This document shows, in pieces, positions 113 through 144 of a DNA stretch of 32,124 nt. The DNA is from an uncultured Spirochaetaceae bacterium. GTDB lineage: Bacteria; Spirochaetota; Spirochaetia; Sphaerochaetales; Sphaerochaetaceae. Location: NCBI GenBank assembly GCA_944389115.1, contig CALXLE010000006.1, positions 1 through 32,124 on the forward strand. Reading direction: 5' to 3'. The notes below the pieces were generated by a model. It was not told the origin of the DNA, ran no database searches, and saw only the letters and a program-made list of their open reading frames with translations. Position 1 is the first letter of the stretch. Each line of letters begins with the position of its first letter. The position numbers and the translations under genes are program-made.

Positions 113-144
113 AGGCTACCCCCCCCCCAGTTGTGTTTTGTCAA
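113..144 (-). promoter_or_regulatory. Promoter with ten-G tract in the -35/-10 spacer
   Basis: On the minus strand a perfect -35 TTGACA (144-139) is followed by a 20-base spacer ending in ten G (128-119), then TAGCCT (118-113) as the best -10. The lipoprotein ATG lies 33 bases further on. Twenty bases is longer than the usual 17, so at this tract length the promoter would be weak. Loss of about three G would restore normal spacing. The -10 is imperfect, so its assignment is an inference. Confidence 0.55.

Follow-up and report, generated by a model that had tools for sequence, protein, structure and literature searches.

A very probably phase-variable poly-G promoter before a lipoprotein gene, one of a genus-wide set in uncultured gut spirochaetes

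The first nucleotides of this contig hold the promoter of a lipoprotein gene whose -35 and -10 hexamers are separated by a spacer carrying ten consecutive guanines. We read it, with considerable confidence, as a phase-variable promoter of the kind found at Neisseria meningitidis porA and Treponema pallidum tp0126, with switching deduced from comparison among relatives. The window, meaning the whole 32,124-nt stretch analysed, is the complete contig C6 of a 2.47-Mb metagenome bin of 167 contigs. An earlier note had described a TTGACA, a 20-base gap including the G10 run and then a -10 hexamer before a lipoprotein gene, and this arrangement was confirmed on the minus strand.

Read on that strand, the element runs from the -35 hexamer TTGACA (144-139) through ten bases of pre-tract spacer, AAACACAACT (138-129), and the G10 tract (128-119; C10 on the plus strand) to the -10 hexamer TAGCCT (118-113), giving a spacer of 20 nt in all. 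Six bases after TTGACA stands a WAC triplet, here AAC (130-132), and the same offset is kept in 86 of the 89 sites whose pre-tract spacer is at least 9 nt. The hexamer TTGACA, the spacer and the tract were read directly from the sequence, and length variation among relatives marks the tract as the presumed site of slippage. TAGCCT is a weak -10 that abuts the tract directly, and TANNNT follows nearly all lipoprotein-promoter tracts of this genome without having been a search criterion. Upstream of the -35, A-rich blocks (145-182, minus) resemble an UP element. Downstream, transcription is predicted to start at a purine some 7 nt past the -10 (105-106, minus), a site placed by the pyrimidine-A (YA) step of the genus, at which the window copy reads T-G-A, and a ribosome-binding site, AGAGGAG, follows at 96-90 (minus), where a purine-rich block is also seen in a profile built from 90 distinct sites. 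A generic promoter scan missed the element because it allowed spacers of only 16-18 nt, and a DNA hairpin sought in the promoter gave no signal (z 0.35).

The controlled gene starts with an ATG at 80-78 and occupies positions 1-80 of the minus strand; its open reading frame exceeds the window end, and the gene is truncated because the contig ends there. The product begins MKKTILTIMVAAMMLVVFTACEQQMPT..., a signal peptide with a lipobox (MKKTILTIMVAAMMLVVFTAC-EQQMPT), and its full-length orthologue in the sister species G018 (L285), a lipoprotein of 398 aa, matches the Ig-like Big_3 domain of Pfam at 1e-5. The upstream neighbour on the same strand is groEL (245-1867, minus), an order shared with the sister species, and it is followed by an intrinsic terminator with a 13-bp stem and a U run (193-225, minus; -22.7 kcal/mol, z -3.7). 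This terminator separates the two genes, so the lipoprotein gene needs a promoter of its own.

A functionless run of guanines arising by chance between genes would be ordinary by composition: although the G10 tract is the sole G or C run longer than six in the window, one tract of eight or more G in 32 kb was matched by 12 of 100 dinucleotide shuffles. The full arrangement is another matter. The composite TTGACA-N5..16-G7+-TANNNT occurs at 13 sites in this genome against about 0.005 expected per genome, and at 219 sites in 33 of the 48 congeneric species, and the reversed pattern had no match. This genus-wide recurrence, together with a 90% association with lipoproteins, refutes the chance reading, to which we give practically no weight. 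When tracts of eight or more G in this genome were listed by length alone, with no promoter motif required, most lay upstream of lipoprotein open reading frames, and nearly all of those had TTGACA before and TANNNT directly after. The composite was found in 4 of the 22 genera of the family, presumably Sphaerochaetaceae, and in 22 of 167 genera across the phylum, nearly all of them within one class. Homopolymers indifferent to strand were rejected as an account, since the 48 genomes have just 7 sites with a poly-C equivalent. One tract in this genome reads as poly-C and precedes a divergent lipoprotein gene by about 50 nt (L065:1394-1402, contig C147; CSQYPVWFYPFP).

The distribution has further features. 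Fifteen of the 48 congeners (e.g. G001-G005, G008, G021 and G026) have no poly-G promoters, fairly complete bins included, and in these the system is apparently lost or absent. Among the matches listed in a scan of named genomes, members of the genus stand with uncultured gut Spirochaetales and Spirochaetaceae; records L104 and L108 have, at identical contig positions, the sites of G035 and G012. The matches listed also include gut Firmicutes, Saccharibacteria and others, with the composite before secreted proteins; such bins of Saccharibacteria, Clostridia, Bacilli, Lentisphaerae, Alphaproteobacteria and Rickettsiales (L103, L114, L130, L144, L147, L158 and others) often carry it in that position, and among the non-spirochaete matches listed the modal spacing is again 19 nt.

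The tie to lipoproteins is close. A lipobox open reading frame lies directly downstream, after a short leader, in 94 of the 104 sites read, compared with 37 of 185 open reading frames by a similar test in surrounding DNA of this genome (tract genes counted in) and none of 27 within the window; in related genera, lipoproteins follow 17 of 23 sites. The proposal that the controlled gene encodes a lipoprotein thus holds for the window copy, by its lipobox N-terminus, and for most of the related sites. From these signal sequences the product would be an envelope or surface-type protein, presumably exposed. Tracts also occur within coding regions. A coding G8 lies in the signal peptide of another lipoprotein of this genome (L047:3991-3998, contig C13, minus; MRKHLIGMLGGVLLLVLASCTQY) and is currently in frame, a candidate translational on/off switch in the same kind of protein. 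More G8-G9 tracts stand inside long open reading frames on C67 (L055:5023-5031), C149 (L067:4676-4683) and C47 (L051:4030-4037), at least the first and last of these in lipoprotein-like genes, and are possible frame-shift switches.

Tract length varies where its surroundings do not. Lengths range from 7 to 12 G, and among 27 promoter pairs with at least 92% identity over 66 flanking bases the number of G differs in 22, while mismatches take up 2.7% of positions in the flanks of the same pairs. Beside groEL, at the orthologous locus, the sister species G018 has 9 G against 10 in the window; no other indel occurs in the 535 bases aligned, and the tract is preceded there by C and not T. A paralogue on contig C48 matches the window base for base along 184 bases, its 9 G being the one difference. 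Short-read metagenome bins might misstate homopolymer lengths, and the genus members examined all appear to be draft bins whose contigs often break at these genes. However, the tract recurs at the same place in 33 species and in single-contig relatives such as G454, so that only the exact length of a single copy could be wrong, and we consider an assembly or sequencing artefact very improbable. Loss of mismatch repair was rejected as the cause of the long tracts, as mutS has a match in 48 of 48 genomes, above the curated cut-off in 46; with mutS present, a mutator state is not required and the slippage rate need not be very high. The suggestion of a slipped-strand, phase-variable promoter therefore has its comparative signature, in the tract lengths of orthologue and paralogues, the recurrence in the genus and the lipoprotein tie, with slippage as the presumed process behind it.

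The 90-site profile reads, 5' to 3', A-rich blocks about 10 bases apart, TTGACA, WAC, the tract, TANNNT (mostly TAGNCT), the YA step and a ribosome-binding site. The YA step follows the -10 by about 7 bases; in 62% of genus sites it comes 11-12 nt beyond the tract, a steadier distance than that to TTGACA (36%), and by tracking the tract end it supports TANNNT as the true -10. Sites fall into class A, with at least 9 pre-tract bases and the WAC triplet, and class B, with 7-8 pre-tract bases, spacings of mostly 16-17 nt and tract lengths as in class A. A mature N-terminus of the form C..RY..IP.P is commoner in class B (8/12 vs 4/83).

The tract and WAC together could instead be a fixed operator or structural element, in which tract length is no switch or only tunes the distance from a regulator to the -10. 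Several observations lean this way: the constancy of the WAC offset, the near restriction of TTGACA-N6-WAC to G tracts in this genome (7 of its 9 matches, the remainder no more frequent than in the control), the rarity of poly-C equivalents, and a report that a CRP homologue acts jointly with poly-G at tpr promoters (PMC7864442). The narrow length distribution, with 9 G in 55 of the 104 sites, fits a selected fixed length as well as the usual poly-G mode, which is 9 G in Neisseria (PMC5953494) and in tprL in vivo. However, near-identical paralogous promoters differ by up to 4 G (8 vs 12 in G022), and promoters of a neighbouring genus keep tract and lipoprotein with WAC absent, which makes a fixed element unlikely in our view. 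A specific long-spacer design was also considered. Promoters of the MerR type have a 19-20 nt spacer carrying a dyad operator; the spacing fits, but here the spacer consists of WAC and a G run and has no dyad, and this candidate was rejected. A phase-variable promoter remains the preferred reading.

Which tract length corresponds to the ON state is a separate matter. Ten G had been taken as three bases too long, and hence as the low state, a reading that the genus-wide spacings do not support. The modal spacing over all sites is 19 nt (43/104), 18-22 nt is usual, and class A hardly ever goes as low as 17 nt, with four matches at 17 nt or less in 48 genomes, two of them with a G8 tract; the state of a copy is thus not readable from its spacing. 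The window copy, at 20 nt, is one base above the mode. Selection on total spacing was rejected because longer pre-tract spacers are not offset by shorter tracts (Spearman -0.05, p 0.6). Either class A genes are off in almost all cells and species, or 18-20 nt is the spacing at which they work. The first possibility follows if a 17-nt rule applies, with ON at 7 G; most cells would then have the 10-G copy and almost every promoter of the class OFF, and ON cells would be rare. Such a rule has precedent, since tp0126 is optimal at 17 nt (PMC7864442) and the output of an E. coli spacer library peaks at 17-18 nt, is high at 15-19 and is lower beyond (PMC8695583). Against it stand the scarcity of class A sites at 17 nt or less beside the 19-nt mode, the expectation that a promoter set never ON should decay, and the class B sites, which reach 16-17 nt with tract length unchanged. 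We regard the 17-nt rule as possible though somewhat improbable and, judging from the distribution of spacings, prefer a phase-variable promoter that would work at 18-20 nt.

Paralogues of the same genome can share far more at their 5' ends than in their products. Promoter and signal-peptide DNA can be 97-100% alike between them where mature proteins are about 25-46% identical, mostly about 25-30%, compared with a background of about 26% for pairs with unrelated promoters. For L285 and L292 (G018) the similarities of promoter, signal peptide and mature protein are 1.00, 0.98 and 0.25; for L258 and L259 (G012) they are 1.00, 0.98 and 0.29. Gene conversion or cassette exchange would explain like promoters on unlike bodies, and strong selection on the leader with fast divergence of the body would explain them equally. 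Contig ends in this genome (C6:1, C48:1 and C131:6932) and in several congeners (G010, G012, G014) fall in or beside a cassette; cassette repeats probably account for the ends at C6, C48 and C131. Because assemblies break at cassettes, the lipoprotein repertoires of these bins are under-counted. We tentatively sketch a mosaic system, a conjecture that we would sooner doubt than assert, in which gene conversion or cassette exchange keeps a cassette of promoter and signal peptide near-identical and the cassette drives many very unlike lipoprotein bodies, each with its own poly-G switch, and in which the composite TTGACA-N6-WAC-G8..12-TANNNT works at about 18-20 nt and not 17, perhaps through an A-form-like geometry of the G tract or a factor that reads WAC.

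In the mechanism we propose, positions 113-144 would be the core promoter, of sigma70 type, of a gene for a surface-type lipoprotein, set apart from groEL by the terminator. The spacer tract would gain or lose single guanines through slipped-strand mispairing, and each change would move the two hexamers one base closer together or further apart, which in B-form DNA is 0.34 nm and about 34 degrees. Such a shift may raise or lower transcription and, as this promoter would be one copy of a genus-wide multi-gene set, a population could contain cells with many lipoprotein combinations, with a presumed benefit through evasion or niche switching.

To our knowledge, most work on poly-G promoter switching concerns a few pathogens, and we found no report of phase variation in Sphaerochaeta among open-licence papers. 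That genes of a lipoprotein superfamily characteristically carry a poly-G promoter in most species of an uncultured genus of gut spirochaetes suggests that commensals ordinarily use combinatorial variation of their surface as a strategy. The more than 200 G-tract promoters also form a natural library on how spacer length and poly-G geometry set output, and with a homogenised promoter-leader cassette in front of divergent bodies one may ask whether lipoprotein genes exchange expression modules.

Among the known systems invoked by the earlier note, porA and tp0126 are apt comparisons and the tpr genes a looser one. T. pallidum tprE/G/J and tprL likewise have poly-G upstream of a spirochaete gene family, and the tprL tract is mostly 9 G with a range of 7-11 in vivo (PMC7864442). 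However, the tprL tract reaches into the -10 region and the start site follows after four bases, whereas here the tract stands before an intact -10, with TANNNT following it and the YA step 11-12 nt on. Tpr proteins are also unrelated to the lipoproteins here, the orthologue L285 matching Big_3 and no Tpr family; with the tract wholly in the spacer and no Tpr protein downstream, a tpr-type tract was rejected. At porA the poly-G lies between -35 and -10, and output is graded, being high at 11 G, about 2-fold less at 10 G and lowest at 9 G (PMC3639595). Unlike the present set, porA is one porin gene in a distant phylum, without a multi-gene cassette. The tp0126 gene, which encodes an OmpW homologue, shares a spirochaete host, a variable G tract between -35 and -10 and an envelope product, and its spacing is argued to set transcription (PMC7864442). 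It differs in being a single gene for an OmpW-like outer-membrane protein, compared with many lipoprotein genes here, and in its reported optimum of 17 nt, where the present class has its mode at 19 nt and also carries a WAC triplet. The promoters described here share with porA and tp0126 a G tract between -35 and -10 whose length differs between conserved flanks, with a lipobox gene downstream in nearly all cases, and by analogy their mechanism would work like that of these two promoters. New here are the host group, the scale and the tie to a superfamily of lipoproteins, together with the WAC triplet, the cassette organisation and the long modal spacing.
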